NCBI GenBank assembly: GCA_902785985.1
Contig: CADABA010000048.1
Location: forward strand, 1 to 39,392
Direction of reading: 5' to 3'
Length of the DNA stretch: 39,392 nucleotides
Source: an uncultured Lachnospiraceae bacterium
Lineage (GTDB): Bacteria; Bacillota; Clostridia; Lachnospirales; Lachnospiraceae
Position numbers and translations under genes: made by a program. Numbering within the stretch: position 1 is the first letter of the stretch; each line of letters begins with the position of its first letter. This document shows, piece after piece, positions 5,757 to 32,230 of this stretch. The notes under the pieces were generated by a model. That model worked only from the letters and a program-made list of their open reading frames with translations, searched no databases and was not told the DNA's origin.

Positions 5757-5800
5757 CGCGCCGCGCACGTCGCGGCAGGAACGCCGAGGCGTTCCTGAAG
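5757..5800 (+). repeat. R1 repeat element, copy a
   Basis: GCGGCAGGAACGCC followed by GA and GGCGTTCCTG gives a perfect 10-bp stem at 5776-5797. It is preceded by GCGCACGTCGCGG-type sequence, as in the other R1 copies (near 6035, 13043, 26005, 32151). Confidence 0.7.
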
Positions 5801-5904
5801 AGGAAGGGACCGGACTTGCGATGTGATTTCTCCGGATGGAACCCTGATTTTCAATGTATTGTCAGGCAAAACTTCTTTTACTGCGGACAAGTTTTGTCAG
5901 TGAC

Positions 5905-5932
5905 TTGATTTCCTGTCTTGAAAGCGTAAAAT
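5905..5932 (+). promoter_or_regulatory. Candidate sigma-A promoter for the V-ATPase operon
   Basis: TTGATT (5905-5910), a 16-bp spacer and TAAAAT (5927-5932) lie 164 bp before the first ATPase gene. The predicted leader of about 155 nt would contain an R1 element (stem at 6035-6056). The call rests on consensus match only. Confidence 0.4.
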
Positions 5933-6009
5933 TAGAATGATGCAGTAAAAAACGCGCAGCAATATCATTTGTCCGTGCCGATTTACGTCATACGGTCTTT
6001 TACGGAATG

Positions 6010-6059
6010 TGATTCGCACGTAAGCGTGCCGCGGCAGGAACACTGAGGTGTTCTTGATA
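6010..6059 (+). repeat. R1 repeat element, copy b, in the V-ATPase leader
   Basis: The stem is CAGGAACACT, then GA, then GGTGTTCTTG (6035-6056). Compared with copy a, a G-C pair has become A-T and a C-G pair a T-G wobble, so pairing is kept although sequence changed. The upstream part TTCGCACGTAAGCGTGCC matches copy d near 25983. Confidence 0.7.
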
Positions 6060-6095
6060 CTGCAGAATAGAACAGCTATGGAAGGGGAGGTGTTT

Positions 6096-6407
6096 ATGGA
6101 CAACTCCGTCATTGAACGGCTCGCTGACATTGAGCGAGAGGCTTCGGGCCTTGTAGAGAAGGCTGAACGGGAGTCGCAGGAGCTCACCGCTTCTTATGAG
6201 CGCAGGACTCTCGAATTCGACGAGGAAGCCGAGGCGGCTGCGGAGAAAGAGATCGCCGATATGCGTGCCTCGCTCGAGAAAAAGAACGAAGAGACCATGC
6301 AGGCGCTTGAGTCGGAGATGGAGCGCATGGCCTCTATTCTCGACCAGGAGTACGAATCGAAAATCGACACGCGCGCGGACGAGATCGTGAAGAAAATTCT
6401 TGAGTGA
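6096..6407 (+). CDS. V-type ATPase peripheral-stalk subunit G/H
   Basis: The 103-residue protein is almost entirely charged coiled coil, rich in Glu, Lys, Ala and Arg, with no hydrophobic segment and a typical C-terminal end (ADEIVKKILE). The start at 6096 has a strong AGGGGAGG site (spacing 5); upstream in-frame codons look untranslated. In bacterial and archaeal A/V-ATPases this small subunit pairs with E to form the peripheral stalk that holds the A3B3 head to subunit I. It is the first gene of the operon, 12 bp before subunit C. Identity comes from position plus character, since coiled-coil proteins share little sequence. Confidence 0.75.
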   Translation: MDNSVIERLADIEREASGLVEKAERESQELTASYERRTLEFDEEAEAAAEKEIADMRASLEKKNEETMQALESEMERMASILDQEYESKIDTRADEIVKKILE

Positions 6408-6419
6408 AGGAGGACTCGT

Positions 6420-7460
6420 ATGGGCAGTCTGCTATCTTACAGCGGGGTCATTACGAAGATCCGCGCCATGGAAAAGCTCCTGATCTCGGATGATGAATTC
6501 AGAGAAATCGTTTCACTGCCTTCTGTTTCCGCCATCGAGGCATATCTTATGAAAAATCCCCGTTACGCTGAGGAATTTCGCCGGTTTCCGACCGAGGAGG
6601 TCCACCGCGGAGTCCTCGAGTCGATCCTCGGATGTACCGTATTCCGTGATTATGTGAAGATTTTTCATTTTTGTACGATGGAGCAGAGAAAATTTCTGCG
6701 GAAATATGTAAGGCGGTATGAGATCAGGCTTCTGAAAAAATGCCTGTCCTTTGTCTGTCAGGGAAGCACGCCGACAGACAGCATGTTTGCGTACGGGGAT
6801 TTTTTTGACAGGTACACGTCTCTTGACACGAAGGCTCTGTCCGCCTGCACTTCTGTCGCGGAGCTTCTGCATGCGATCCGTGATACGGAATACGCGCCTG
6901 TCCTTGCCCGGATCGATGAGATACCGGATGCGTCTCTCTTTGACTATGAGACTGCGCTCGATATGCATCATTTTCGGACGGGCTGGAAGGAACTCGGTAA
7001 GATCCTTCCGAAGGACAGCCTTGAGGCTGTGGCGGCAGGGTATGGGACCAAGATGGACCTGCTGAACCTGTGGTATATTCACAGGGCGAGGGCGTTTTAC
7101 AGGATGAACAAGGCGGATACTTTTGCGCTTCTCATTCCGGTGCGGTTCAAACTGCGAAAGGAAGAGATCGAGGCGCTCGTCGGTGCGGATTCGGAAGAAG
7201 AATTCAGAAAGGCGCTTGCCGATACACGTTACGGCAGGAAATATCCGGATCTTGCGCCGGAAAATCTCGAGAGCATGTATAACACGATCTGTCGGAAAGT
7301 TCTCGGGGAGCAGGCGAAGAAGAATCCGTATTCCATCGCTTCGGTCTATAATTACCTCTTTCTCAGAGAGCATGAGGAGTACCGGCTGACATCCGCTGTG
7401 GAGTGTGTGCGGTATGGCGTGAAGCCGGATGAGGCCATGGAGATGATTCTGACACTTTAA
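6420..7460 (+). CDS. ntpC: V-type ATPase subunit C (AC39/d family)
   Basis: The 346-residue protein belongs to the V-ATPase AC39 family, a funnel-shaped socket linking the central stalk (D, F) to the membrane K ring. Characteristic parts are the N-terminal Y-S-G-V-I-T-K-I-R-A-M-E segment, the central LRKYVRRYEIRLLKKCL helix, and the final AVECVRYGVKPDEAMEMI stretch. It is predicted cytoplasmic and helical with no membrane segment. The start follows AAGGAGG (spacing 5-6) and lies 12 bp after the stalk gene. The stop codon lies within the first bases of an R2 repeat, so the repeat abuts the gene exactly. Confidence 0.92.
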   Translation: MGSLLSYSGVITKIRAMEKLLISDDEFREIVSLPSVSAIEAYLMKNPRYAEEFRRFPTEEVHRGVLESILGCTVFRDYVKIFHFCTMEQRKFLRKYVRRYEIRLLKKCLSFVCQGSTPTDSMFAYGDFFDRYTSLDTKALSACTSVAELLHAIRDTEYAPVLARIDEIPDASLFDYETALDMHHFRTGWKELGKILPKDSLEAVAAGYGTKMDLLNLWYIHRARAFYRMNKADTFALLIPVRFKLRKEEIEALVGADSEEEFRKALADTRYGRKYPDLAPENLESMYNTICRKVLGEQAKKNPYSIASVYNYLFLREHEEYRLTSAVECVRYGVKPDEAMEMILTL

Positions 7461-7525
7461 TCTCTGACGCAGAATTCCCGTGAATTGTGCAGTGAGATGA
7501 CTGCGCAGATGTAAAGTAAAGATTT
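7458..7525 (+). repeat. R2 repeat element, copy a, between ATPase C and I genes
   Basis: The sequence begins TTTAATCTCTGACGCAGAAT, where TAA is the stop codon of subunit C, and continues with TCCCGTGAATTGTGC and GAGATGACTGCGCA. It matches R2 copies near 12891 and 25845. The right part, where the inverse of CTCTGACGC is expected, is not evident, so this copy is partial. Confidence 0.6.
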
Positions 7526-7588
7526 TGTACACTGATTCAGCAAAGCGGACCCGGAATGTCCGCTCTGCTCAGAAAGTAAGAGGGGCAT

Positions 7589-9541
7589 ATGATTGAAAAA
7601 ATGAAATTCGTAAGCCTCACAGGTCCCAGGGGGGACATTGACCGGATGGTCATGCGGTATCTTTCCAAGTATGACATTCATCTTGAAAATGCGATGACCG
7701 AACTGTCCGATGTCCATGGCCTGACGCCCTATGTACAGACAAATCCGTACAAGGGGCTGCTTGCGAAAGCCAACGAATTCGCGGCGCTTACGGAAAAGGG
7801 CGCTGCCAAGGCAGACCCGGTCACGCTGCCGTTAGACGAGGCGATCGACCTTATCCGGATGCTCGGCGCGGATCTGACCGAGCTCACGGACAAAAGAAAG
7901 ACTCTGCTGCTAAAAGATGAGGAACTGTCGGACCTGATCAAAAAGCTGACACCTTTCAAGGAAGTCGGGTATGATCTCCGGACCATCCTGGATTTCCGCT
8001 ATATCGCAAGCCGGTTCGGCAGGATCCCCCGTGACTATATTGACGAGTACCGGGATTATATCCTTCAGAATACGAACACGATCACGATCGATTGCAGCCA
8101 GGATGATGATTATCTCTATGGGATATATTTTGCTCCCCGCTCGGAAGTTTACAAGGTCGACGCGGTCTTTGCGTCCCTTCATTTTGAGCGGTATTATCTC
8201 CCGAAAGAGTATCAGGGAACACCCGATCAGATCTATCTGGAAATCGCTGAGAAAAAGGCGGAAAATGACAGGCAGATCGCCGCGCTGGACGATGAAATGA
8301 AAAAAACGCTCAGCAGCCACACACCTGCCCTCCTGGCCGCCAGAGAGAAGCTGGAGCTCCTCTCCGCGAATTTCGATGTTCGGAAAATGGCCGCCTGCAC
8401 AAAGAACGGCAGTAAGTCGGATGTTTTCTACATTGTCTGCGGATGGATGGCGGAAGCGGATGTCAGAAAGCTTCGCGAAGACATCAGGGACGACAAGTTC
8501 GTCACACTGATCGAGCAGGAGAACGAGGAGGTCGGTGTGAAGACACCGACGCGGCTTCGGAACCCGAAGATATTCAAGCCCTACGAGATGTATGTCAAAA
8601 TGTACGGGCTGCCCAACTACCGTGAGATCGATCCGACGATCCTTGTGGCGGTGACGTATTCTTTCATTTTCGGGATCATGTACGGAGATGTCGGTCAGGG
8701 GCTGTGTCTTGCAGTATTCGGCTTCCTGCTCTACAGGTTCAGGCATATTGATCTCGCGGGGATCATCGCGCTGGCAGGGGTTTCTTCCACGTTCTTCGGT
8801 TTCATGTTCGGCAGTGTCTTCGGCTTTGAGGATGTCATTGAGGCACGCTGGCTCAGACCGCGCGAGGCGATGGTCACGCTTCCGGGTGTAGGATCCATCA
8901 ATACGGTCCTCGTCTGTGCGATCGTCTTCGGCATGTTCCTCGTCCTGGTCTCGATGATCCTTCATATCATCAATTACAGGCGGGACCGGAATGTGGAGGA
9001 GACCTTCTTCAGCACGAATTCCGTGGCAGGCCTTATCTTTTACGGCACCGTGGTCTTCCTGATCGTCATGGTCTTCAGCGGACATGCGGTTCCGGCAGCC
9101 GGTATTTTTATCGCACTGATCGTTCTGAGCGTCCTTGCCATGTTCTTCAAGGAGCCGCTCACGAAGATCGCTCTGAAGAAAAAAGGACCGAAGATCGAGG
9201 GAGGAATCGGCATGTTCATCGTGCAGGGCTTCTTCGAGATGTTCGAGGTCATGCTTTCCTTCTTCTCCAACACGCTCTCCTTCGTGCGTATCGGCGCCTT
9301 CGCCGTGAGCCATGCAGCGATGATGAGCGTTGTTCTGATGCTGGCCGGCGCGGAGAACGGGGGAAGTCCGAACTGGATCATCATCGTCCTCGGCAACCTG
9401 TTCGTCATGGGTATTGAAGGTCTGATCGTCGGGATCCAGGTCCTGAGACTTGAATTTTATGAGCTGTTCTCCCGCTACTATAAGGGGGACGGCAAGGAAT
9501 TCGTGCCGTCGCTCACGAAGAGAAAGACGGAGAAGAGCTGA
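7589..9541 (+). CDS. ntpI: V-type ATPase subunit I (a-subunit, ion channel stator)
   Basis: The 650-residue product has the two-part architecture of subunit I. An N-terminal cytoplasmic coiled-coil arm spans about 1-340 and a membrane domain of about seven helices runs to the end. The family segments ALVAVTYSFIFGIMYGDVGQG-like (about 350-370) and LSFVRIGAFAVSHAAMM (about 568-584) are present. The arginine in the latter corresponds to the conserved residue that takes part in ion release from the K-ring glutamate. The start at 7589 follows GAGGGG (spacing 4-5). It lies 128 bp after subunit C with a partial R2 repeat between. Confidence 0.93.
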   Translation: MIEKMKFVSLTGPRGDIDRMVMRYLSKYDIHLENAMTELSDVHGLTPYVQTNPYKGLLAKANEFAALTEKGAAKADPVTLPLDEAIDLIRMLGADLTELTDKRKTLLLKDEELSDLIKKLTPFKEVGYDLRTILDFRYIASRFGRIPRDYIDEYRDYILQNTNTITIDCSQDDDYLYGIYFAPRSEVYKVDAVFASLHFERYYLPKEYQGTPDQIYLEIAEKKAENDRQIAALDDEMKKTLSSHTPALLAAREKLELLSANFDVRKMAACTKNGSKSDVFYIVCGWMAEADVRKLREDIRDDKFVTLIEQENEEVGVKTPTRLRNPKIFKPYEMYVKMYGLPNYREIDPTILVAVTYSFIFGIMYGDVGQGLCLAVFGFLLYRFRHIDLAGIIALAGVSSTFFGFMFGSVFGFEDVIEARWLRPREAMVTLPGVGSINTVLVCAIVFGMFLVLVSMILHIINYRRDRNVEETFFSTNSVAGLIFYGTVVFLIVMVFSGHAVPAAGIFIALIVLSVLAMFFKEPLTKIALKKKGPKIEGGIGMFIVQGFFEMFEVMLSFFSNTLSFVRIGAFAVSHAAMMSVVLMLAGAENGGSPNWIIIVLGNLFVMGIEGLIVGIQVLRLEFYELFSRYYKGDGKEFVPSLTKRKTEKS

Positions 9542-9661
9542 ATGTATGCGGTGCTGCCGTACGTATAAAAAGGCAGCGCGTTCCTGTATAGAAAGGCACA
9601 TAGGGGTGCCGCTCCGGGGCCGGGTCTCCGGAAATATTATCAGTTTAATGAGGAGGTCACC

Positions 9662-10102
9662 ATGACACTTACAATCCAGATCTTACTGTTTGCTGCGCTT
9701 ATCCTGAGCATTCTGATTCCGGGCACCGTATTTCTGCTCGGCGAGAAGAACCGCGGCCGTTTCAAGACGATGCTGGCGGTCAATCTGTTCACATTTTTCG
9801 GACTGCTGCTCATCTCGGTCATCACGATGTTCGCCGGCGCAGCGCCGGTCTTCGCGGATGAGGCCCAGACGATGGGCTCCGGACTCCAGAAAGGTCTCGG
9901 ATACATCGCTGCCGCGCTCTCTACCGGCATCTCCTGTCTGGGCGGCGGTATCGCTGTCGCCTCTGCAGCCTCAGCGGCACTGGGCGCGATCAGTGAGGAT
10001 CAGAGCATCCTCGGTAAGTCCCTTATTTACGTCGGTCTTGCAGAAGGTGTGTGCCTCTATGGTCTGATCATTTCCTTTATGATCATCGGCCAGCTCGGCT
10101 GA
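9662..10102 (+). CDS. ntpK: V-type ATPase subunit K (proteolipid ring)
   Basis: The 146-residue membrane protein has four hydrophobic segments (about 5-27, 37-60, 78-108, 118-145). The C-terminal pair is the proteolipid hairpin: LGYIAAALSTG and GGGIAVASAASAALGAISED, then GLAEGVCLYGLI with the ion-binding glutamate. The N-terminal pair carries no second ion-binding acid, and its end (AAPVFADEAQ) resembles a signal-type region. This longer form is, to my knowledge, usual in Lachnospiraceae and differs from the 16-kDa duplicated type because only one glutamate is present. The start follows GAGGAGG. Whether H+ or Na+ is carried cannot be decided here. Confidence 0.9.
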   Translation: MTLTIQILLFAALILSILIPGTVFLLGEKNRGRFKTMLAVNLFTFFGLLLISVITMFAGAAPVFADEAQTMGSGLQKGLGYIAAALSTGISCLGGGIAVASAASAALGAISEDQSILGKSLIYVGLAEGVCLYGLIISFMIIGQLG

Positions 10103-10152
10103 TTTCATTTCCTTGTTCGGCGGACACGATTTTCGCTTTTGAGGGAAAATGT

Positions 10153-10479
10153 ATGAAAATGTATCTTATAAGTGACAACATTGACACACTGACCGGCATG
10201 CGTCTCGCCGGCATCCCCGGTGTCGTCGCTCACGGGAAGGATGAGCTTGAAGCTGCCCTCACGGCTGCTTTCGCGGATCCTGATATCGGCGTGCTCCTTC
10301 TCACCGAGAAGTTCGGGAGGGATTTTCCGGAGTATGTGAACCGGGTAAAGCTCACGCACCGGATGCCGCTTATTATCGACATTCCGGACCGGCACGGCAG
10401 CGGCCGCCGGCCGGATTTCATTACGGCCTATGTCAATGAGGCGATAGGATTGAAAGACAGTAGAAGAAAAGTTGGATAA
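10153..10479 (+). CDS. V-type ATPase subunit F (central stalk)
   Basis: The 108-residue protein fits subunit F: an early YLISDNIDTLTGMRLAGIPG segment, the VLLLTEK strand, and the PLIIDIPDRHGS motif characteristic of the family (compare P-x-I-x-x-I-P). Subunit F binds the central rotor D in the cytoplasm and regulates coupling. I chose ATG 10153 (GAGGGA site 10141-10146, spacing 6) over upstream in-frame codons that encode nothing family-like. The stop overlaps the TTG start of subunit E by 8 bp, suggesting translational coupling. Confidence 0.9.
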   Translation: MKMYLISDNIDTLTGMRLAGIPGVVAHGKDELEAALTAAFADPDIGVLLLTEKFGRDFPEYVNRVKLTHRMPLIIDIPDRHGSGRRPDFITAYVNEAIGLKDSRRKVG

Positions 10480-11041
10480 TTTCAGAACGATCTGCGTTGA
10501 GAACGCGCGTAAGGACAGCGTGAAGGCGCAGAAGGCAGTCAGGGAGAAGCTCGAGGCTTCTTTCGAAGAGCACAAGGCACAGAAAAAAGAGAGCCTCAGG
10601 ACACGGGTCTATGAAGAGACGATCGAAGTCCGCCGTGAATTCAACCGGATCGAGTCGGAGCGCAGGGCGGAGATCCGCAGGAAAATGGCCAAACGCCAGG
10701 CTGTGATCGAGGACAGGATCTTTAAGGCGGCGGAGGAAAAGCTTGCGGAGTTCAGGAATTCGTCTGCGTACGGAGAGTATCTTGTCCGAAAGATCACGGA
10801 AGCGATCAACTTCGCGAACGGTGAGAGTATAACGGTCTATATCGACGCCTCGGATAAGGACTTTGTCAGGAGGATCCTGGAAAAGAGAGGAATCTCGCCG
10901 ACCATCTCGAGGGAGAGCTTCGGCGGCGGAGTGCGCATAGTGCTGAATAAGAGCAGGATCCTCATCGACAATTCTTTCAGGAAAAAGATGGAAGAGGCGA
11001 GAGAGTGGTTCACATTTGACGAAGGAGACGGTGATGTCTGA
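10472..11041 (+). CDS. V-type ATPase subunit E (peripheral stalk)
   Basis: The 189-residue protein has a long N-terminal coiled coil (1-100, charged, Lys/Arg/Glu-rich) and a C-terminal globular part. The latter includes the EAINFANGESITVYID strand and SFGGGVRIVLNKSRILIDNS, equivalent to the conserved GG-hinge of V-ATPase E. The coiled-coil half pairs with the G/H subunit. The start is TTG at 10472 inside the end of subunit F, with a weak purine-rich site (AGAAGAAAAG). The stop overlaps the subunit A start by 8 bp. F-E-A are thus tightly packed and probably coupled in translation. Confidence 0.9.
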   Translation: MDNFRTICVENARKDSVKAQKAVREKLEASFEEHKAQKKESLRTRVYEETIEVRREFNRIESERRAEIRRKMAKRQAVIEDRIFKAAEEKLAEFRNSSAYGEYLVRKITEAINFANGESITVYIDASDKDFVRRILEKRGISPTISRESFGGGVRIVLNKSRILIDNSFRKKMEEAREWFTFDEGDGDV

Positions 11042-12806: not shown

Positions 12807-12830
12807 GGATCTGCTCGGGACCGTGATCCG

Positions 12831-12979
12831 GATCTCTTATGCAGAATGCTTGCGGCGGTGCCTGCGATGCATGTGCAAAGCAGAACCTGCCTCTTATGCA
12901 GAATGCTCGTGATGGGGCTCACGATGAATACACAAAATGAAACTGTTCTCTGACACGGGTACGGATCTGCGTCAGAGAT
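12831..12979 (+). repeat. R2 repeat element, copy b (full copy plus a partial duplicate), between ATPase A and B
   Basis: The full copy (12891-12979) begins CTCTTATGCAGAATGCTCG, contains GATGAATACACAAAATGAAAC, and ends CTGCGTCAGAGAT. The end is roughly the inverse of the R2 start, so the element has imperfect terminal inverted repeats. A second left end (GATCTCTTATGCAGAATGC) starts at 12831, so the left half is duplicated. R1 follows from 12986. Confidence 0.6.
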
Positions 12980-12985
12980 GAAAAG

Positions 12986-13065
12986 CTTCCGGCGGATCAC
13001 AGCCGCACAGTGAGGAGAGTGTTTCCCGCCTGCGCGGTGCGGCAGGAACGCCGGGGCGTTCTTGA
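12986..13065 (+). repeat. R1 repeat element, copy c, directly after R2
   Basis: The copy runs from CTTCCGGCGGATCAC and AGCCGCACAG to the stem CAGGAACGCC-GG-GGCGTTCTTG (13043-13064). The left half matches copies d and e (CCGGCGGATCGCAGCC). It ends 18 bp before the start of subunit B. Confidence 0.7.
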
Positions 13066-13083
13066 ATATACGAGGAAAAACAT

Positions 13084-14487: not shown

Positions 14488-14668
14488 GTACAGGGACCCG
14501 ATCCGGTCTTTATGTCGGCTGACGGCGGCTCGAATCCCCCGCATCTTTCCCGCGGGCGGAACCCGGAATGCAGAAGACGGGCAGAACGGTCCGGTTCAGA
14601 CTGAAGGCGCCGGGATATTCCTGATACGTATGTACCGGCAGAAAAGCGTTAATGGAGGAGGTGATTGA

Positions 14669-15517: not shown

Positions 15518-15551
15518 AAACCAAATGTTTCAATTTTGTTAAGAAAAAATT

Positions 15552-16553: not shown

Positions 16554-17138
16554 TCTTTTTTCTCCTTCCTTTTCTTTCAGAGATAAGCATCTGCGGAACG
16601 CAGTACCGGGAGGTATTGGATGAACAATTCACTGAAAAGGCACCGTTTCGCAGTTCCCTGCTTTCAGAGACAGGTTTCATTTTTCACAGTTCGATTTTTG
16701 TTTATCACGCAGTGAAAGGTGTGGGATCCTGCGGGAGAGAATCCTCATGAACAGGTCTTCCCGGGATTGTTTCGACCGCCGTAAAGAGCATTTTCTTCTG
16801 CCGTTTTGAGGCAGGGTCTGTCCGAAAAAGCTGATCAGGGAGCCTGTCCGAAAAAGTCTGCTTTGACAAAAGGAGCCGGTCGGCGTTCACGCGCGTGTAA
16901 CCGAGGGCTCCTTTATATACTAACACGAATATTATTCTGCGAAAAGATTTTAAACGTAAATATTTTATAAAACACAAATACAGAGGAAGAGAATTTCATC
17001 AGGAAGCATCTTTCTCTTTGCGCGGATGAAATCCAACGGAGACCTTGATCCGGATACTGTTCTGAACCTCTGTCAGAGTCGGGAAGCACTCTGCGCATTC
17101 ATCCTGCGATCGAAATCACGGGAAATCTGTGTCGGAGA
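16554..17138. other. 585-bp gap between trxB and the galactokinase-like gene
   Basis: No supported gene lies here. The gap should contain the trxB promoter (not clearly recognisable) and the terminator at 16869-16914. A 14-base sequence, CTGTCCGAAAAAGC/T, occurs twice about 30 bp apart (near 16818 and 16853), each followed by a similar purine-rich run. The short open frames here show no codon pattern or motif of a real protein. Confidence 0.45.
16869..16914 (-). terminator. Terminator of the galactokinase-like gene
   Basis: AAAGGAGCC (16869-16877) and GGCTCCTTT (16906-16914) form a perfect 9-bp stem with a further CGGT/ACCG pairing inside. On the minus strand the stem is followed by TTTTG. 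It lies about 225 bp after the stop at 17139. Confidence 0.55.
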
Positions 17139-18305
17139 TTACAGGATCCGGTGTGCGCCGTCCCCTGCGAAAGCCTCGTAAAATTCGGGCTCGATACCGA
17201 ACGCATCCGTGTACTCCTGCTTCGTCACCTCGAGGAAATTCGGGATCGCGTCTTTGCGGACTATGCTGACCGTGCAGCCTGCGTAACCGCCGGTCATTCG
17301 GCTTCCGATAACACCGGGGGTCCTCCAGGCGAGTTCTACGAGAAAATTGACTTCCGGGCTGGAGACATCATAATCGTTTCTGAGAGAAATGTGAGAAGCA
17401 TTCATCAATTCTCCGAACCGCCGCAGGTTATCAGCACGGAGTGCGCTGCAGGCCTGAATCGTCCGCTGATTCTCGTAGACGACGTGGCGTGCCCTCTTGA
17501 CCAGGGTCTCGTCCATCAGGACATCCTTACAGCTCTCAAAGGTATCGCTGCTCAGGTCGCCCAGGAACTGGACGTGCGTGACGGTCTGGAACTTTCTGAG
17601 GGCCCTGGCGCATTCCTGACGCCGGATATCGTACAGTTCGGCGATATGCGGGTTCTTTACGTGGCTGTTCGTGACGATGATCTCTGCATCGCCGAGCTCA
17701 AGCGGTATGTACATGTAGGTCAGGCGCTTGCTGTCCAGAAAAATGGCGTGATCTTTTTTTCCCATCGCCGCGGTGAACTGATTCATGATACCGAAATTGA
17801 CGCCGATATAGCGGTTCTCGCCCTCCTGGCAGATCAGCGCAATGTCAAGATCTGAAAGATCACAGTTATACAGCTCTCTGAGCATGAAGCCGGTGAGGAC
17901 TTCGATCGCTGCGGAAGAGCACAGTCCGACTTCACGCGGAAGGGTGCTGTCAATCAGAAGATCAAATCCGGTCGGTATGATCTCTCCGTGTTCCCTGAAA
18001 CTCCAGATGACGCTCTTGACGTATCGGGACCAGTCCTGATCTCTGCCGGGGACAAGCTCATCGAGCCGGTCCTCAAGGATGCCGTCTGATTCGACGGCGC
18101 AGGAGTACAGGCGGATCTTTCGATCGGTCCGCTTCCGGATCAGACCTGTGACCCCGAGCGTCAGCGCACAGGGGAATACATGACCTCCGTTGTAGTCGGT
18201 ATGTTCGCCGACCAGACTGACCCGGCCGGGCGCAAAGAAGGTGAAGACGCTGTCATCATATCCAAATAGCTGTCTGAACTTTTCAAGAAGAAGTTCTGTT
18301 CCCAT
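17139..18305 (-). CDS. galK: Galactokinase-like GHMP kinase with altered active-site motifs
   Basis: The 388-residue product has the full length and order of galactokinase, which phosphorylates galactose at C1 with ATP. Residues 27-38 read GRVSLVGEHTDY (usually GRVNLIGEHTDY). The ATP loop at 123-133 reads PREVGLCSSAA (usually P-x-G-x-G-L-S-S-S-A). The catalytic-base motif at 172-176 reads GIMNQ where canonical enzymes have GIMDQ. The C-terminal GHMP motif reads SRMTGGYAGCT. The overall fold is clearly GalK, but the replaced Asp may abolish or change catalysis. It is transcribed alone on the minus strand from a promoter at 18329-18356 and preceded by GGGGGGTAGGAC. It could be a regulator or a kinase of another sugar. 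Confidence 0.8.
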   Translation of the reverse strand: MGTELLLEKFRQLFGYDDSVFTFFAPGRVSLVGEHTDYNGGHVFPCALTLGVTGLIRKRTDRKIRLYSCAVESDGILEDRLDELVPGRDQDWSRYVKSVIWSFREHGEIIPTGFDLLIDSTLPREVGLCSSAAIEVLTGFMLRELYNCDLSDLDIALICQEGENRYIGVNFGIMNQFTAAMGKKDHAIFLDSKRLTYMYIPLELGDAEIIVTNSHVKNPHIAELYDIRRQECARALRKFQTVTHVQFLGDLSSDTFESCKDVLMDETLVKRARHVVYENQRTIQACSALRADNLRRFGELMNASHISLRNDYDVSSPEVNFLVELAWRTPGVIGSRMTGGYAGCTVSIVRKDAIPNFLEVTKQEYTDAFGIEPEFYEAFAGDGAHRIL

Positions 18306-19827: not shown

Positions 19828-19926
19828 GTTTATCTCAGTGGGGAAGACCCCCGCTTCTATAAGCGGGGGATATGTCAATATCCTGCTCGTCTCAGTGGCG
19901 GGTTTCAATCCCCCACTGAGATAAAC
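19828..19926 (-). repeat. M repeat element, copy 1 (MITE-like)
   Basis: The element is 99 bp and bounded by GTTTATCTCAG and its inverse CTGAGATAAAC. Inside are a strong hairpin CCCCCGCTT-CTAT-AAGCGGGGG-type (19848-19869) and a second stem-loop CTCAGTGGCGGG / CCCCCACTGAG. Read on the minus strand it aligns along its length with copy 2 (28553) and copy 3 (32232). It carries no gene of its own. Confidence 0.75.
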
Positions 19927-23097: not shown

Positions 23098-23104
23098 CAG
23101 AACG

Positions 23105-24736: not shown

Positions 24737-24749
24737 AAAATCCGAACAG

Positions 24750-24935
24750 GCACGGAGGCTTAACAAGTGCAGAATTTCAGCTGTGCAGGAGCTTAAGCTG
24801 TACGGGAGCTTAACAAGCGCAGGACCTTAAGCTGTGCAGGAACTTAACATATGCCGGAACGCAACATGCGCTGGAACTTAAGCTGCGCAGGAGCTTAACA
24901 CACACAGGAACTCAACATGAGCAGGAGCCTATGCC
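24750..24935. repeat. 17-bp tandem repeat, about 11 degenerate units
   Basis: Units start at 24750, 24767, 24783, 24800, 24817, 24834, 24851, 24868, 24885, 24902 and 24919, each 17 bp (one is 16). A typical unit reads GCGCAGGAGCTTAAGCT. Ends alternate between AAGCT and AACAN types. The period is not a multiple of three and no reading frame runs through it. A palindrome (GCCTAT, eight bases, ATAGGC at 24927-24946) follows the last unit. Confidence 0.85.
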
Positions 24936-25050
24936 GCGGTATAGGCATGAAACAGGGAGGAATGAGAATGCTTTGACAGCAGGCAGCCGTTGATCGGAGC
25001 CTGTTTAAAGGGAACAAAATGAATAACATACGACTGTAGAGGGGGGTCAT

Positions 25051-25818: not shown

Positions 25819-25844
25819 TCTCTGACATATACTTCCTGTGCGTT

Positions 25845-25942
25845 TAATCTCTGACGCAGAATTCTCGTGATGTGAGTCTGAGATGAATGCGCAAAGTGAA
25901 ACAGCTCTTTTGTATGGGATGCAGAGTAAGCGTCAGAAATTT
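25845..25942 (+). repeat. R2 repeat element, copy c
   Basis: This copy runs from TAATCTCTGACGCAGAATTC to GCGTCAGAAAT, with imperfect terminal inverted repeats (CTCTGACGC / GCGTCAGA). The inner part GATGAATGCGCAAAGTGAAAC aligns with copy b. A short extra TAATCTCTGAC lies at 25817 across the SDR stop codon. Confidence 0.65.
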
Positions 25943-25950
25943 ATGCCTTA

Positions 25951-26026
25951 TGTGAATCGCAGCCGCGCAAAGAGGAAGGTGCTTCGCACGTAAGCGCTGC
26001 GCTGCAGGAATGTGAGGCGTTCCTGA
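25951..26026 (+). repeat. R1 repeat element, copy d, directly after R2
   Basis: TGTGAATCGCAGCCGCGCAA and GAGGAAGGTGCTTCGCACG lead to the terminal stem CAGGAATG..GAGGCGTTCCTG (26005-26025, one base deleted). The left part is nearly identical to copy e. Confidence 0.7.
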
Positions 26027-26141
26027 CAGAGGCGTACGATCAGAAGCGGAACATATGAAGCCTCCGCGACAACAGACAAATCGCTGCTGCGGCCGTTTGT
26101 TCAAAAACAGAACGTATTTATTCGGAGCATAAAGATCAGAT

Positions 26142-26259
26142 AACTAAGATTTCCCGCATTCGGATGCATGGTTGTTACCATACTGATTTGTGCGGGATCT
26201 TTAGTTGGATAAAAGCAACGAGAGGACTATATACCCCCGCTGCTGAGGGGGCGTATATA
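26142..26259 (+). promoter_or_regulatory. Structured leader upstream of the hydrolase gene (candidate RNA element)
   Basis: The first hairpin is long: AACTAAGATTTCCCGCA (26142-26158) pairs with TGCGGGATCTTTAGTT (26191-26206), with an internal ATGGT/ACCAT stem (26168-26172/26177-26181). The second, at 26228-26259, combines TATATA/TATATA and CCCCC/GGGGG. No T-tract follows either one, so a simple terminator is not supported. Both lie within 150 bp of the start codon and its GTAGGAGG site. Confidence 0.45.
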
Positions 26260-26291
26260 CACTGTAATTTTATCAGTAGGAGGTTTTTTGT

Positions 26292-27140: not shown

Positions 27141-27154
27141 AAGATCATATTAGG

Positions 27155-27194
27155 ACAAGGCTGCCGCATCGGTTGACGCGGCAGCCTTGTTTTT
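27155..27194 (+). terminator. Terminator after the hydrolase gene
   Basis: ACAAGGCTGCCGC pairs with GCGGCAGCCTTGT, a perfect 13-bp stem, followed by TTTTC. Confidence 0.85.
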
Positions 27195-27235
27195 CGTGCT
27201 TATCGTTCGAAGGGAGACAGGAAACCATCACAGTC

Positions 27236-28303
27236 TCATGAGATGATGCCGCCCCCGATAACGACGTCCCCGTCATACAGGACGACGGACTGTCCGGGCG
27301 TGATCGCCCGCTGCGGCTGGTCGAATTCGACCCGGAGAAGGTCGTCTTCCGGCTGCGTGACTGTGCAGGGCTGCTCTTTATGGCGGTAGCGGATTTTGGC
27401 ACTGCAGCGGAGTGAGCCTTCGATCCGGTCTGTGGTGATCAGATTGATCCGCCGGGCATAGAGAGTCTTTTTCATCAGATCCTCGTTGGAGCCGAGTGTG
27501 ACCGTGTTGCTCTCAGGGTCGATCTTTGTGACGAATAAGCGATGTTCTGCCGGGATCCCGAGTCCGCGCCGCTGGCCGAGCGTGTAGTGGATGATCCCTT
27601 TGTGCCGGCCGAGAACATGTCCCCCGGCATCAACAAAATCTCCCGCAGGGCATTCACGGCCGGTGTATCGCTGAATAAAACCGGCATAGTCGCCGTCGGG
27701 AACGAAACAAATATCCTGGCTGTCGTGCTTCTTGGCATTTATAAAATTTTTCTCGGCGGCGATTTCCCTGGTCCGCTGCTTATCCTGATCCCCAAGGGGG
27801 AACTGTACATGGGAAAGCATGTCCTGTGTCATCATATAGAGAACATAACTCTGATCCTTGGCCGGATCGAGTGCTTTCAGCAGAAGGTAACGTCCGCTCT
27901 CCGGGTCATATTTGATCCGGGCATAGTGTCCTGTGACAAGAATATCACAGCCCAGTTCTTTCATTTTCTCAAAGAGATGCTGAAACTTGAGGCAGCGGTT
28001 GCACTCAATGCAGGGATTGGGCGTGCGGCCATGCAGATACTCGTCGATAAAAGGTTCGATCACCTGCTCCCTGAAGTGATTCTCATAGTGGAAGATATGA
28101 TAGGGGATACCGATCTTTTCGGTCACGCTTCGCGCATCCTGCGTATTTTCGAGGGAGCAGCAGGTATCCAGGAGATCCTTTCCGATAACATCATTTTCAT
28201 ACAGCCGCATCGTGCAGCCCACACATTCATATCCGCGGGATGACATGATCTGGGCGGCAACGCTGCTGTCCACACCTCCGCTCATGGCAATCAATGCTTT
28301 CAT
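27236..28303 (-). CDS. mnmA: tRNA-specific 2-thiouridylase
   Basis: The 355-residue enzyme inserts sulfur at U34 of Glu, Gln and Lys tRNAs. The PP-loop SGGVDSS lies at residues 8-14, Cys101 (in TPNPCIECN) is the equivalent of the E. coli nucleophile region, and Cys199 in SQDICFVPD is the second catalytic cysteine. LGQRRGLG and the C-terminal ITPGQSVVLYDGDVVIGGG complete the family features. ATG 28303 is chosen over the upstream in-frame TTG (28309); AAAGGAA lies about 10 nt before it. It is a single gene on the minus strand. Confidence 0.95.
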   Translation of the reverse strand: MKALIAMSGGVDSSVAAQIMSSRGYECVGCTMRLYENDVIGKDLLDTCCSLENTQDARSVTEKIGIPYHIFHYENHFREQVIEPFIDEYLHGRTPNPCIECNRCLKFQHLFEKMKELGCDILVTGHYARIKYDPESGRYLLLKALDPAKDQSYVLYMMTQDMLSHVQFPLGDQDKQRTREIAAEKNFINAKKHDSQDICFVPDGDYAGFIQRYTGRECPAGDFVDAGGHVLGRHKGIIHYTLGQRRGLGIPAEHRLFVTKIDPESNTVTLGSNEDLMKKTLYARRINLITTDRIEGSLRCSAKIRYRHKEQPCTVTQPEDDLLRVEFDQPQRAITPGQSVVLYDGDVVIGGGIIS

Positions 28304-28331
28304 CTGCAATATTTCCTTTCTTAAGAGACGG

Positions 28332-28449
28332 CCTGCAGGCGCTTCCGGAACTCATTGAGAGTACACAGTTTTGCAAATTCCTGGAAATGACCTGCAGGCG
28401 CTTCCGGAACTCATTGAAAATGCACAGTTTCGCAATTGTCCGGAAACGG
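28332..28449. repeat. 59-bp tandem direct repeat, two copies
   Basis: CCTGCAGGCGCTTCCGGAAC begins at 28332 and again at 28391, and the copies stay aligned for about 59 bp (28332-28390, 28391-28449) with some substitutions in the second half. It lies between the divergent mnmA and recD2 genes. A CCTGTGCG remnant follows. Confidence 0.85.
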
Positions 28450-28472
28450 CCTGTGCGTTGACGCGCTTCTCT

Positions 28473-28551
28473 GCGGTCCCGGGAACAGAAGCCCCGGCGT
28501 ACGTGGTGCGCCGGCGCCTTTATGCTGCGCACGGACGCGATCCGCCGGAGG
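28473..28551 (-). repeat. R1-like element, copy f (degenerate), next to M copy 2
   Basis: The sequence before M copy 2 shares GGTGCG and GCGATCCGCCGGAGG with R1 copy e, which sits at the same distance and orientation before M copy 3. The terminal stem is eroded. The R1-M junction (CCGGAGG, then GTTTATCTCAG) is nearly identical in both. Confidence 0.5.
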
Positions 28552-28552
28552 T

Positions 28553-28652
28553 GTTTATCTCAGTTGGGGATGGAAACCCGCTGCTGAGACGAGCAGGATA
28601 TTGTCTTGCCCATCGTCTGCAGAAGCGATGGATTTGCCATGCTGAGATAAAC
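28553..28652 (+). repeat. M repeat element, copy 2 (MITE-like)
   Basis: The element is bounded by GTTTATCTCAG and CTGAGATAAAC (100 bp). The internal hairpin reads CCATCG...CGATGG where copies 1 and 3 have CCCCCG...CGGGGG, so the stem is kept although its sequence differs. GACGAGCAGGATATTG is shared by all copies. Confidence 0.7.
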
Positions 28653-28695
28653 AGATGTGCTTTGATGAGTCTACCTGATGCCCGACGGTTTGTCA

Positions 28696-28794
28696 ACGGA
28701 GACGGCTCCCGGGACGTTTCCTGTTGCCACGGAGACGGCTCTCGGGACGTTTCCTGTTGCCATGGAGACGATTTTTCGGGCATTTCCTGCTTCG
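28696..28794. repeat. 33-bp tandem repeat, about three units
   Basis: Two near-identical units (28696-28728, 28729-28761), beginning ACGGAGACGGCTC and ending CCTGTTGCC, are followed by a diverged third unit to 28794. The period is 11 codons, but no translated product in this stretch has support. Confidence 0.8.
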
Positions 28795-28953
28795 CTGAAG
28801 GAAGCGCATATCTTGATAAAAACGGTGAAATGACGTACAGTAGACCCATAAAGCGGAACCCGCTGATCGATTTGGCGGGACAGGCGGTATGCTCCGGTCT
28901 TCCGGAGACAGACATTTTTACGACAGTACTGAAAGAAAGGCAGGTGACAGAGC

Positions 28954-31341
28954 GTGGAACATTTGCGATGTGTAGTCGAACGCATCACATATCAGAACCC
29001 CCAGAACGGATACTCTGTCATCAAGTGCAGGGCAAAGAATTTCCAGGATCTTGTGACAGTCGTCGGCGAGATGCCGGATGTGCATGTCGGGAGCGTTCTT
29101 TATCTGGGCGGATTCTGGAAAATGGACGCCAGATACGGCCGGCAGTTCACGATCCAGGAGTTTGAGGAGACACTGCCGGCAACCGTCTACGGCATAGAAA
29201 AATATCTGGGAAGCGGGCTGGTAAAGGGAATCGGTCCCAAATATGCAAAAAAAATCGTACAGAAATTCGGCAAGGATACGCTGGAGGTGATCGAGACTTC
29301 TCCGGATGATCTTCTGAAGATACCGGGCATCGGGAAAGTCCGTGTGGAACGGATCAAAAAGAGCTGGACCGAGCAGAAGGAGATCAAGAACATCATGCTC
29401 TTTCTGCAGGGGCATGACGTTTCCACGAGTCATGCCACGAAGATCTATAAGGCTTATGGAAATGAAAGTATAGAGATCGTGAAGCAGAACCCCTACCGCC
29501 TGGCGGATGACATCTGGGGAATCGGATTCAGGACAGCCGATACGATCGCGGAAAAGCTCGGATTTGACCATGAGAAGTATGTCCGCCTGCGGAGCGGCAT
29601 GCTCTATACCCTGAATAAGCTGTCTGACGAAGGGCACTGTTACGCGACCCGTGAACAGCTGATCCGGGCCGGCACAGAACTGCTCTCCGTGGAGGAGGGT
29701 GTTTTGAATATTGCCCTGGATGAAATGATCCGTGCACATGACGTTATCACAGAGGAACTGCCGATTCCTGAGGACGCGGCTGTCGGTCAGGTGCCCGACC
29801 GGGCGATTTACCTCCCGCCGTTCTTCTTCTCGGAAGCGGGTGCGGCGAGACGTCTCAGAGCTGTTCTGGAAAACAAAGAGGGAATTCGGGTCGGGACGGA
29901 AGGCCTTGCCGAACGGATCAGTCTCCGCACCGGCATGCAGTATGATGCGGTTCAGATACAGGCCATTGAGACAGCTGTGCAGAGTAAGGTCCTGATCCTG
30001 ACCGGCGGACCCGGGACGGGCAAGACGACAACAGTACTCGGAATCATCACGGCCTTTCGAGAGGCCGGTGCCAGGATCCTCCTGGCTGCGCCGACCGGGC
30101 GCGCGGCGAAACGTCTGACCGAAGCGGTGAACGGAAGTCCGCAGCCTTCTGCTTCGGGGGATGAGGAGGCCTGGCGGAGTGCACAGCGGCGTGGATCAGC
30201 ACGGACCAAAAGAAGCGGGATCTCCTCCTGCGGGGAGGCTAAGACCATCCACCGGCTTCTGGAAGTGAAAATGCCGGAAGGCTATCAGAGAAATGAAGAA
30301 AATCCTCTTCAGGGGGATGTACTGATCGTGGACGAGTGTTCCATGATCGACATCATGCTGATGTATAATCTCCTGAAAGCGGTACCCGATACCATGACCC
30401 TGATCCTGGTCGGGGATATTGACCAGCTGCCGAGCGTAGGTGCCGGCAATGTTCTTCGGGACATGATCGATTCGGAGTGCTTTCCGGTCGTCCGCCTGAC
30501 ACGGATCTTCCGGCAGGCGCAGACAAGCCGGATCATAACGAACGCTCACCGGGTGAACTCCGGAAAAATGCCGGATATTTCCAATGGGAAAAATACCGAC
30601 TTTTTCTTCATCGATATGGAGAAGACCATGGCGAGGGAACGGCAGAGCGCAGATCCTTTCCTGCCCCCGGGATCAGAAATTTCGCCTTCTGAGATTGCTG
30701 ACCGGGCAGCGAATGAGATCGTGACACTGGTAAAGACAAAACTCTCCCGGTACTACCGCACAGACTCCCGCGAGATCCAGGTCCTGACGCCCATGCAGCG
30801 GGGCGTGGTCGGAGCGGCGAACCTGAATCAGGCGCTTCAGGCAGCGATCAATCCGGGTCCGGGAAGCAGCGGCAGATTTCAGGAAACGGATCACGTGCTG
30901 CGGCGAGGCGGTATGGTATACCGCCGGGGCGATAAGGTCATGCAGATCCGGAATAATTACGACAAGGAAGTCTTTAACGGTGATATCGGATTTATTGAGA
31001 GCATTGATATGGAGGAGAGGACGCTTCGGGTGAATATCGACGACCGATCCGTAGAGTACGATGCCTCCGAGCTCGATGAGCTTGTGCTGGCCTATGCCAC
31101 GACTATTCATAAAGCGCAGGGTTCAGAGTATCCGATCGTCGTGATCCCGGTCCTGATGAACCACTACGTCATGCTGCAGCGGAACCTGATCTATACCGGT
31201 ATCACCCGTGCAAAGAAGATCCTTGTGCTGGTCGGAACGAAGAAAGCGCTGTCTTACGCCGTCCGCCATCTGACTGTGGATAAGCGCAATACCATGCTGA
31301 AAGAGCGTCTTCAGAAGCTCATTCCTGCCGGGAAAATATGA
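28954..31341 (+). CDS. recD2: RecD2-type ATP-dependent DNA helicase
   Basis: The 795-residue SF1B helicase has an N-terminal OB-fold and helix-hairpin-helix region (KGIGPKYAKKIVQKFG, LLKIPGIGKVRVERI) typical of RecD2, which acts without RecBC. Motif I is GGPGTGKTT (about 350-358), followed by APTGRAAKRL, VDECSMID (about 461), GDIDQLPSVGAGN and the 3'-end ATTIHKAQGSEYP and TRAKKILVLVG segments. There is a roughly 35-residue low-complexity insertion after APTGRAAKRL (Ser/Arg/Ala-rich, about 393-428) and a second after FFFIDMEK (about 555-585); both are loop regions in relatives. The start is GTG 28954 with a weak site. The terminator at 31397 ends it. Confidence 0.93.
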   Translation: MEHLRCVVERITYQNPQNGYSVIKCRAKNFQDLVTVVGEMPDVHVGSVLYLGGFWKMDARYGRQFTIQEFEETLPATVYGIEKYLGSGLVKGIGPKYAKKIVQKFGKDTLEVIETSPDDLLKIPGIGKVRVERIKKSWTEQKEIKNIMLFLQGHDVSTSHATKIYKAYGNESIEIVKQNPYRLADDIWGIGFRTADTIAEKLGFDHEKYVRLRSGMLYTLNKLSDEGHCYATREQLIRAGTELLSVEEGVLNIALDEMIRAHDVITEELPIPEDAAVGQVPDRAIYLPPFFFSEAGAARRLRAVLENKEGIRVGTEGLAERISLRTGMQYDAVQIQAIETAVQSKVLILTGGPGTGKTTTVLGIITAFREAGARILLAAPTGRAAKRLTEAVNGSPQPSASGDEEAWRSAQRRGSARTKRSGISSCGEAKTIHRLLEVKMPEGYQRNEENPLQGDVLIVDECSMIDIMLMYNLLKAVPDTMTLILVGDIDQLPSVGAGNVLRDMIDSECFPVVRLTRIFRQAQTSRIITNAHRVNSGKMPDISNGKNTDFFFIDMEKTMARERQSADPFLPPGSEISPSEIADRAANEIVTLVKTKLSRYYRTDSREIQVLTPMQRGVVGAANLNQALQAAINPGPGSSGRFQETDHVLRRGGMVYRRGDKVMQIRNNYDKEVFNGDIGFIESIDMEERTLRVNIDDRSVEYDASELDELVLAYATTIHKAQGSEYPIVVIPVLMNHYVMLQRNLIYTGITRAKKILVLVGTKKALSYAVRHLTVDKRNTMLKERLQKLIPAGKI

Positions 31342-31396
31342 GAAATTGATGAGCGAATCCAAAAGCTTCTCTTAGCCGGTAAAATATGAGACATGG

Positions 31397-31438
31397 CGAC
31401 AGGCCCGCAGCCAATCTGCTGCGGGCCTGTCGTTCTTT
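31397..31438 (+). terminator. Terminator after recD2
   Basis: A perfect 15-bp stem (CGACAGGCCCGCAGC, 31397-31411, loop CAATCT, second arm 31418-31432) is followed by TTCTTT. Confidence 0.9.
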
Positions 31439-31556
31439 ACGTGTAGACAGAGAGTAAAAAGGCTTTGATCCACCTTCCCGGGACTCGGCTCGGCGACGAA
31501 AGAGGATAGGTTCATCCCGAACTCAGAGATACTGATTTCGTTCTTTCTAATACGTC

Positions 31557-31979
31557 TTACTCAAAATGGAAAATATTGATCCCGGTCTTTTCGTCGAACC
31601 GGCGGCCGGTCTCGCAGTCGAGAACATCGACAAAGATCTCTGCAGTCACGGAGATGACGCACTCGACCAGATGCCCGCCGAAGAGTGAGAGGTCCGGCGT
31701 GGCGAGTCCTATGTGCACGTGAAGGTAAGGCTTCCCGTCTTTTCGTGAGATGTTACCGTTCAGGGAAGCGATCTCCATGGGTACATCGAGCGTTTTTCTG
31801 TGAAATTCCTTCTTTTCAAGATCGTAGAGCGCAATCTTTGCGTGGTTTGAAGCGCCGAGTCCCTGGATTTGGGCTGTGCGGATGTTTTCATTTTCCGCAA
31901 GCGCCGTCAGGGAAGAAATGATCTCGTCTCCGGGATCGAGACGAAGGATGAATGTGTGGCCGCATTTTCTGTATTCCAT
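31557..31979 (-). CDS. PPC-domain (DUF296) putative DNA-binding protein
   Basis: The 140-residue protein is a single PPC (plants and prokaryotes conserved) domain. It has an early L-D-P-G-D-E segment, the QGLGASNHAKIALYD strand-loop, and the metal/ligand segment PYLHVHIGLA with its paired histidines, followed by GGHLVECVISVTAEI. Bacterial members are thought to form trimers and may bind DNA or small ligands, but no specific function is established. It is alone on the minus strand, and its upstream gap (31980-32364) contains three different repeats. Confidence 0.85.
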   Translation of the reverse strand: MEYRKCGHTFILRLDPGDEIISSLTALAENENIRTAQIQGLGASNHAKIALYDLEKKEFHRKTLDVPMEIASLNGNISRKDGKPYLHVHIGLATPDLSLFGGHLVECVISVTAEIFVDVLDCETGRRFDEKTGINIFHFE

Positions 31980-32029
31980 AAGATCACCTCCGGACGGATT
32001 CTTGTTTATATGAATTTTCCTGACAGAAC

Positions 32030-32089
32030 TAACCTGATCGGACTTGTCTGCCTGAACTTACCTGCCTGAGTTTACCTGATTGGACTTGC
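32030..32089. repeat. Degenerate short tandem repeat, about 13-15 bp
   Basis: Four related units (CCTGATCGGACTTG, CTGCCTGAACTTA, CCTGCCTGAGTTTA, CCTGATTGGACTTG) lie in a row. Their inverse shares a GCAGG-A-ACTTAA-like core with the 17-bp units at 24750-24935. It is weakly conserved. Confidence 0.5.
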
Positions 32090-32150
32090 TTCATAAGACC
32101 TGCTTAATGGAACCAGCCTTACTGTACTTGTCGGACTGGTGCAGCTGCTT

Positions 32151-32230
32151 CAAGAACGCCTCAGCGTTCTTGCCGCGCCGCGCATGGTGCGAAGCACCTT
32201 CCTCTTTGCGCGGCTGCGATCCGCCGGAGG
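32151..32230 (-). repeat. R1 repeat element, copy e, next to M copy 3
   Basis: On the minus strand it reads CCTCCGGCGGATCGCAGCC, GCGCAAAGAGGAAGGTGC, TTCGCACCATGCGCGG, then the stem CAAGAACGCT-GA-GGCGTTCTTG (32151-32172). CCGCGCA pairs with TGCGCGG around an inner GGTGC/GCACC hairpin, so at least three stems are possible. Confidence 0.75.

Follow-up and report, generated by a model that had tools for sequence, protein, structure and literature searches.

A covarying intergenic stem-loop of a Lachnospiraceae bacterium is the 3' module of a composite mobile element resembling palindrome-associated transposable elements

What are the stem-loops that recur between the genes of a 39,392-nt stretch of DNA from an uncultured Lachnospiraceae bacterium (positions 1-39,392 of contig CADABA010000048.1, assembly GCA_902785985.1; hereafter the window)? 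The original prediction described five clear copies and one degenerate copy of a repeat with a layout of about 80 bp, here termed R1, and proposed an undescribed family that would be either REP-like (repetitive extragenic palindromic) or RNA-encoding. The five terminal stems are present in the window sequence at 5776, 6035, 13043, 26005 and 32151, and these copies match a covariance model at 42.6, 56.1, 76.3, 78.1 and 102.1 bits, respectively. All five lie between predicted genes, as called from open reading frames (ORFs), and their stem changes are indeed paired: GCG/CGC becomes ACAC/GTGT at 6035, and AGGAAC/GTTCCT in some copies corresponds to AAGAAC/GTTCTT in others. The observation as first described is thus real but partial, and only partly confirmed: R1 is the 3' module of a composite mobile element of ~160-270 bp, and copies such as that at 32149-32306 extend past the 80-bp layout into a 5' long-stem module.

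The covariance model was built on a three-helix structure from 13 copies, four of which come from the window (5976, 12990, 25950 and 32150), the copy at 5744 being the only one of the five window copies outside the model-building set. R1 is 78-86 nt long and its terminal hairpin has the foot CAAG or CAGG. In the genome of origin (G000; 3.88 Mb in 449 contigs, 78% complete), all 150 scored candidates match, the weakest with an E value of 4e-7, so that at least 150 copies are present, many of them 97-100% identical to one another. All counts are lower bounds, capped at 150 scored candidates in the own genome, 112 per genome in the genus and 18 in the family sample, with stricter filters in the scans across more than 40 genomes. 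Within the genus, 17 of 42 genomes match at an E value of 1e-4, five of which (own genome included) hold at least 90 copies, and 25 are without a match; in a family sample, at least 20 of 250 genomes match, the own genome and one congener among them. The closed genome G232 holds 34 copies. In G012, several contigs start within 65 bases of an R1 copy.

Covariation of the R1 stems exceeds chance. In alignments that were fitted to the model, and hence lean towards its structure, and in which kinship of the copies inflates the counts, double changes occur at 18 of 21 stem pairs among 70 distinct copies from the own genome and the window (mean 9.3 after shuffling, with none of 500 shuffles reaching the observed value) and at 14 of 21 pairs among 41 distinct copies from G021 (shuffled mean 5.0; again 0 of 500). 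Controls in which the structure was slid along the alignment score below the true pairing on every measure. Two R1 stem sequences, GCCGCGC/GCGCGGC and ACGTGCG/CGCACGT, share the same fold and the same ends, and the covariation is therefore hardly in doubt. Of the proposed family, it thus holds that the repeat is interspersed, mostly intergenic, structured and covarying; that R1 is its whole unit does not. Neither Rfam nor the phage and plasmid collections hold a match to it: in Rfam only a tRNA matches in the window, and five element loci give no match at the gathering level. The prediction thus withstands the outcomes named as refuting it, namely few copies, a lack of paired changes, or a catalogued element as far as these collections go. 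No published description was found in the literature searched, outside which lie most subscription journals and all preprints.

Covariation this strong is an argument for a functional structured RNA or regulatory leader (riboswitch, attenuator or small RNA) that has been multiplied, and the orientation of the copies points the same way. Among 94 copies from G000 and G021 (stronger matches only, 54 of 75 and 40 of 50, respectively), 8 lie at locus edges, 3 overlap predicted ORFs and 83 are intergenic; 58 of these 83 are oriented like the upstream gene, and between tandem gene pairs 39 are sense versus 12 antisense. Against this stand the lack of an Rfam match, the 25 of 42 congeners devoid of R1, and presence that varies at orthologous sites. 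Moreover, in the paired columns of 127 distinct copies, many of them decayed, G.T (112) barely outnumbers A.C (94) and thus offers no sign of selection at the RNA level. T enrichment after the terminal hairpin is slight, and too slight for a role as terminator, which was rejected. Evidence for an RNA product, as the RNA-encoding half of the original prediction would have it, was not found, and we give a multiplied regulatory RNA only a very slight chance.

The composite architecture emerged from 30 own-genome copies read with their flanks. From 5' to 3' it comprises a long-stem module (D1), an optional middle hairpin (D2) and R1. The 3' end is constant, GTTCTTGA or near it plus A or T, giving the element terminus CTTGA(A/T), and the 5' modules, joined via GCCTC, are of several kinds: type a has the outer stem CTCAGTGGGG/CCCCACTGAG, type b CTTCATCGCG/CGCGATGAAG and type c CTCTGACGC/GCGTCAGAG. 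Each type displays a long stem and an inner hairpin, and repeats its 5' arm once in imperfect form; as all follow the same long-stem plan, the fold is kept where the sequence differs. Some copies carry the optional hairpin GCCTCAGC...GCTTAGGC between the 5' module and R1. The claimed start of R1, CCGGCGGATC-GCAGCC, holds for the copies at 32150 and 12990 (the latter with CACAGCC) and fails for the other three, of which that at 25950 begins GTGAATCGCAGCC, that at 5744 is truncated and that at 5976 is diverged. In the copies read from G011 and G031, type b goes with the R1 GCAGACGTGCG followed by TTGAA and type c with GCAGCCGCGCATTAAGG followed by TTGAT; a strict pairing of 5' module and R1 fails in the own genome, where type b also occurs with an R1 of the GCAGCCGCGC kind (L011, L013 and L015). 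Elements stand back to back in tandem at four loci (L010, L017, L018 and L024), with the right-end/left-end joints TTGAA^CTCAGTGGGG and TTGAAT^CTTCATCGCG. Judged by length, with no ORF search aimed at them, complete copies of ~160-270 bp are too short for a transposase gene.

Further modules and repeats accompany these elements. Five G232 loci (L330-L333 and L336) show a hairpin-containing insert of ~53 bp (GGGCGCACATTGTCCGGTGGACAATGG...) between the 5' module and R1. At several loci of the own genome and of relatives (L377, L173, L174, L184, L190 and others), type-a 5' modules are joined to a sister right end, which has an GGGATTCG-like stem and whose terminal hairpin ends GAGACTTGAA; this right end was excluded from the R1 counts. 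G011 and G031 (L219, L226) hold a palindromic repeat, GGGCTGTCGCAT...ATGCGACAGCCTC, resembling a miniature inverted-repeat transposable element (MITE), which at L226 is directly joined to R1 (GACAGCCTCCGACGGATC) as if replacing the 5' module. Another intergenic palindromic repeat, of ~250-300 bp (AACATTCACTCAAGATGTGG...CCACATCTTTCGTTCATGAAGAAGTT), occurs in G021 (L201, L198) and is absent at the matching G000 sites.

Comparison of filled with empty sites establishes insertion with exact ends and without target duplication. In G066, two tnpA frames (L369 and L371) are interrupted close to their 3' ends by an element with a type-e 5' module; the flanks of this element (117 bases on its 5' side, ending GTTATAT, and 110 on its 3' side) match uninterrupted tnpA copies at L365 and L362 with 98-99% identity. 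In these empty copies, which already hold the target word, the flanks abut between 1853 and 1854 (L365) and between 834 and 833 (L362), with zero bases lost or duplicated. A second set of sites comes from G011 and G031, which are 88-97% alike over the fetched shared stretches; here the searches used flanks joined across the element, for 11 and later for 15 elements, and the other genome was read where the element seemed absent. With the element in parentheses, a type-b insertion (L248/L262) reads CCCGTTTATT^(CTTCATCGCG..TTGAAT)^GTGGTACTGATGG against the empty CCCGTTTATTGCGGCACTGATGG and is exact; another of type b (L250/L261) reads GAGTTTTATT^(..)^CCCTGATGG against the empty GAGTTTTATGCCCTGATGA and is exact save for one base of the word; and one of type c (L245/L259) reads GATTGTTTTAAT^(..CTTGATT)^GCTAAG against the empty GATTGTTTCGATATTCGG, of equal length by hand count. 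Sites in V-ATPase loci were discarded as empty-site evidence, being too diverged and too crowded by other repeats for exact ends. The same G066 element stands at the same place in two tnpA copies (L369/L318 and L371/L340), and may have spread with the insertion sequence (IS) that carries it.

The word that precedes the element depends on the type of its 5' module. Across all fetched loci, the five bases 5' of the module are TTTAT for 39 of 50 type-a modules, TTATT for 17 of 21 of type b, TTAAT for 21 of 23 of type c and TATAT for all 11 of type e; upstream of this target word there is scant conservation, save for more T in types b and c. A complementary word (ATAAA, AATAA, ATTAA and ATATA, respectively) follows the 5' module, before the GCCTC hairpin. 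The pairing count took 73 of 110 copies, the 37 without a recognisable right end being excluded and some type-a rows being the inner repeat of the arm; 61 of the 73 two-ended copies have 5 of 5 complementary bases, with a mean of 4.67, against a mean of 3.73 and a maximum of 3.99 in 2000 shuffles of the guide words between copies. The right end has a word pair of its own: CAAG...CTTGA alternates with CAGG...CCTGA, with 24 double changes at that pair, and the pairs persist while the hairpin between them varies. TTGAT, first drawn from L219 and L222 as a candidate target, was rejected because the exact sites place the target 5' of the element and TTGA(A/T) is largely subfamily-specific.

These sites and words also bear on the possibility that the element is a classical palindromic MITE mobilised in double-stranded form by a DDE transposase, TTTAT...ATAAA being its inverted repeat and R1 a passenger. 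The inverted ends of D1 do take in the T-rich word, D1 exists without R1 (at 19829-19925 and at a G021 site), and other palindromic repeat families share these intergenic spots; but the exact sites lack a target duplication, the empty site itself contains the T-rich word, and the right boundary is the end of R1 and not that of D1. A MITE is hence a highly improbable explanation.

Elements of the IS200/IS605 type, which are mobilised as single-stranded DNA by HUH transposases, choose their targets in this manner, and transposase-free palindrome-associated transposable elements (PATEs) are known; we therefore read R1 as a PATE-like right end. In IS608, for instance, insertion occurs 3' of TTAC, and the cleavage words pair with guides situated 5' of the hairpins (PMC5934647). 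We consider it probable that R1 is the right end of a non-autonomous element that inserts without duplication 3' of complementary words and is moved in trans, as single-stranded DNA, by a transposase of the IS200/IS605 type (Y1 HUH). The left guide would be the word ATAAA, AATAAA, ATTAAA or ATATA between D1 and the next hairpin, which would pick the target; the right guide would be CAAG (or CAGG) before the terminal hairpin, serving the terminal CTTGA (or CCTGA); the D1/D2 and R1 hairpins would offer binding sites to the transposase; and a change of guide would entail a change of target between subfamilies. Membership of the PATE and IS200/IS605 assemblage is supported by target use, the lack of duplication and the complementary words, and is only putative as regards the enzyme.

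More tentatively, one may envisage a family-wide transposase-free lineage whose target is the first turn of its own left stem, whose sublineages were retargeted (TTTAT, TTTATT, TTTAAT, TATAT and perhaps TTCAA) via a guide of 5-7 nt, and whose driving transposase goes unrecognised for want of complete ends in common with the element. If true, this would amount to a natural experiment in how guides redirect single-strand DNA transposition to new targets. Several sublineages have target and guide words that match, natural variants on which the base-pairing rule shown by IS608 engineering could be put to the test, and the missing transposase becomes a defined, searchable question.

Several observations weigh against the proposed mechanism. 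With respect to the ends and words, the 5' module is truncated or missing in some copies; type f (five modules in G051) is only partly complementary, with TTCAA facing TTAAA or its relatives; and the complementary word comes only after the large D1 stem, ahead of D2 or of the GCC-TCC-GGC hairpin, where its pairing with the target is continuous with the D1 stem and can therefore be read as an inverted repeat. The target word of the empty site is off by one base at L250/L261, and at L245/L259 the empty site has TTTCGAT in the position of the word, with two bases different; by hand count, the fit is only to within 1 base at L219 and 4 at L222, and the remaining G011/G031 pairs (deleted, one-sided or holding another copy) were left out. 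As for the enzyme, 22 of 42 congeners have Y1 transposases; a canonical TnpA (Y1 match at E<1e-30) is found in 10 of 17 R1-positive versus 5 of 25 R1-negative congeners, and four of the 17 (G028, G033, G034 and G039) have no Y1 match. R1 is absent from all 28 Y1 loci of the genus that were scanned, of 56 Y1 places, and from 16 of 18 Y1 loci of four further genomes, the other two being insertions in tnpA; no IS bounded by R1 ends was found among the IS loci examined. The six tnpA/tnpB loci of the own genome show R1 at L031 and a weak match at L033 (19.5 bits); G031 has a partial Y1 match ~0.7 kb from an R1 copy; the seven Y1 places of G021 have frames of 60-158 aa; and the only two Y1 proteins of the closed genome G232 resemble REP-associated tyrosine transposases (RAYTs) and neither lies beside R1. 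In G232, the element strand serves as the lagging-strand template in 28 of 34 copies, the bias expected of single-strand transposition (orientation was based on a first ORF read as DnaA and on a GC skew whose sign flips between stretches at 1.52 and 1.60 Mb); this bias does not discriminate, because 144 of 161 sampled long ORFs run the same way.

Certain IS loci show other relations to the element. At L031 (contig C341 of G000), tnpA adjoins R1 through insertion of an IS200 into a type-b element, exactly at TTTTATT^CTTCATCGCG and on the opposite strand, and this IS200 was rejected as the parent. The IS200 copies at L031 and L275 are preceded by TTATT and have AATAAA before the left hairpin, both words being those of type b. 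Type c and, in near-identical form, type b have an inner hairpin that resembles a hairpin, CTCGTGACTTTAGTCGTGAG, upstream of tnpA in a tnpA-tnpB IS605 of G021 (29 nt, 90%), the region after whose tnpB is unlike R1, and a hairpin at a tnpA locus of G027 (23 nt, 96%). An IS605 right end bearing R1 was discarded, as the own-genome tnpB locus that is readable to its end finishes differently; likewise, among 35 IS loci, the element pieces near L237, L302 and L310 do not bound an IS. In G068 (L377, 1208-1737), a sister element of 180 bp ends CTTGAA; next come the first 14 nt of its own left end and, before the contig stops, a decayed tnpA-tnpB frame. This arrangement is possibly the trace of an autonomous relative. 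Different hosts perhaps rely on different enzymes, or some have perhaps lost theirs.

The two RAYT-like proteins of G232 raise the alternative of an element of the REP or bacterial interspersed mosaic element (BIME) type, moved by a RAYT, i.e., by a domesticated chromosomal enzyme with a single-strand HUH mechanism that cleaves near a conserved foot. These two frames (220 and 267 aa) are the only Y1 matches in a genome with 34 copies, and a GGAAG, GTGGAAG or GTAGAAG word precedes the inner hairpin of R1. However, R1 does not adjoin the RAYT-like genes scanned (in G232, ~1.5 kb on each side); the R1-loaded G000, G021, G031 and G041 have no Y1 frame above 200 aa, whereas the R1-free G001, G003, G013 and G024 have one; the GTAG foot is missing in most types (type e holds GTAG inside R1); and the element is 3-6 times as long as the REPs of the cited description (PMC8266576). 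The likeness to REPs first proposed thus extends to dispersal and hairpins, but not to their size of 20-50 nt or their GTAG foot, and mobilisation by a RAYT appears unlikely. A different alternative is an immobile relic, with a copy number left by past spread and an inherited match of the guides. It would accommodate the several R1-bearing genomes without a Y1 match and the many decayed copies, but not easily the near-identity of many own-genome copies, the insertions that differ between G011 and G031, or the clean insertion into tnpA with flanks 98-99% identical to the empty copies; we regard it as improbable. Annotators should treat the repeat as a mobile element before a regulatory RNA, because it is abundant in some genomes, was not found in many congeners, lies near contig starts in G012 and differs in its sites between relatives.

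The window itself presents the element in various states of preservation (Table 1). The R1 of the copy at 32149-32306 has 100% identical counterparts elsewhere in the own genome. The type-c element follows TTTAAT (25843-25848), its left limit being taken from the type-c start. The degenerate copy claimed at 28473-28551 is weak as an R1, but a recognisable 5' module (28550-28650) adjoins it on the same strand, and we therefore consider it a decayed element. The copy in the V-ATPase leader is that at 5976-6057, situated 38 nt upstream of an ORF that lacks a Pfam match and is followed by the AC39, I, C, E, B and D subunit genes. Within the operon, a second copy (12990-13065) stands 18 nt upstream of the B-subunit gene, at a site that differs in length in a relative (L063/G041). 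The closest named V-ATPase locus is on the metagenome-assembled contig CAMOXU010000055.1 ('uncultured Clostridia bacterium'; 92% protein identity), followed by those of Blautia and Dorea relatives. The window also includes short direct tandem repeats at 24772-24934 (period 17), 35965-36058 (~16) and 37338-37539 (33; within a long ORF).

Table 1. Pieces of the element in the window (positions are those of the window)
Feature	Position	Strand	Remarks
Youngest-looking complete element	32149..32306	-	158 bp; type a, shortened 5' module; R1 102.1 bits
Target word TTTAT	32307..32311	-	Directly 5' of the 32149-32306 element; type-a consensus
Guide-like word ATAAA	32233..32237	-	Complementary to TTTAT; putative guide
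R1 right-end module	32150..32226	-	Two nested stems and terminal hairpin CAAGAACGC-TGAG-GCGTTCTTG
Type-c element	25849..26026	+	5' long-stem module from ~25849; R1 25950-26026
Diverged type-c-like element between two V-ATPase genes	12893..13065	+	R1 12990-13065; left limit approximate
Diverged R1, V-ATPase leader	5976..6057	+	56.1 bits; 5' module not recognised
Truncated R1	5744..5798	+	Terminal hairpin and part of inner stem; 42.6 bits
Decayed element	28477..28650	-	Degenerate R1 28477-28547 (10.9 bits, E 0.3) and type-a 5' module
Isolated type-a 5' module without R1	19829..19925	+	Own TTTAT word present
Candidate sister-type right end	33419..33502	+	Stem GGGATTCG/CGAATCCC, terminal hairpin ending GAGACTTGAAT; 24.7 bits, E 9.7e-5
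Decayed pieces: 5' module and R1 inner part	16995..17140	-	
Element fragments	near 7456-7483		

Taken together, the sequences indicate a real, abundant and structured repeat that is a transposase-free mobile element, apparently working like a PATE of the IS200/IS605 kind. In being modular, with exchangeable parts, and in its intergenic location it is comparable to the BOX elements of Streptococcus pneumoniae, a likeness of organisation drawn without sequence comparison. With REPs and BIMEs and their RAYTs, the element shares intergenic location, a hairpin, high copy number and a suspected Y1-type transposase (PMC8266576, PMC2817692), but it is larger, is devoid of the GTAG foot, has no adjacent RAYT that we could find and uses a specific target word. 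IStrons combine a group I intron with an IS605 (PMC4227781); the Rfam scan matched no group I intron in the window or the five element loci. Like the IS200/IS605 elements IS608 and ISDra2, the element inserts 3' of a short word that is retained in the left flank, and has an internal complementary word, terminal hairpins and a right end closing in its own word; unlike them, it has neither tnpA nor tnpB, and its guide-like word comes after the first large stem and not before it (PMC5934647). At the right end, the cleavage word (CR) of IS608 is TCAA and its guide (GR) GAAT, whereas here CAAG and CTTGA directly close the right hairpin (PMC5934647). The closest parallel in kind is offered by the PATEs, which were described from Haloquadratum walsbyi (PMC3119063), with one PATE-like copy in Halanaerobium (PMC7290912). 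Both they and the present element are transposase-free, have near-terminal palindromes, cause no target duplication, behave in an IS605-like manner, reach high copy numbers and are found inserted into IS605-type elements. The present element differs in that its ends have not been traced to deletion of a single IS605, its very long left stem runs into the target, its R1 is strongly covarying, and it shows four target words that each have a matching guide, plus a fifth that is matched in part, in hosts related to Lachnospiraceae rather than in haloarchaea.

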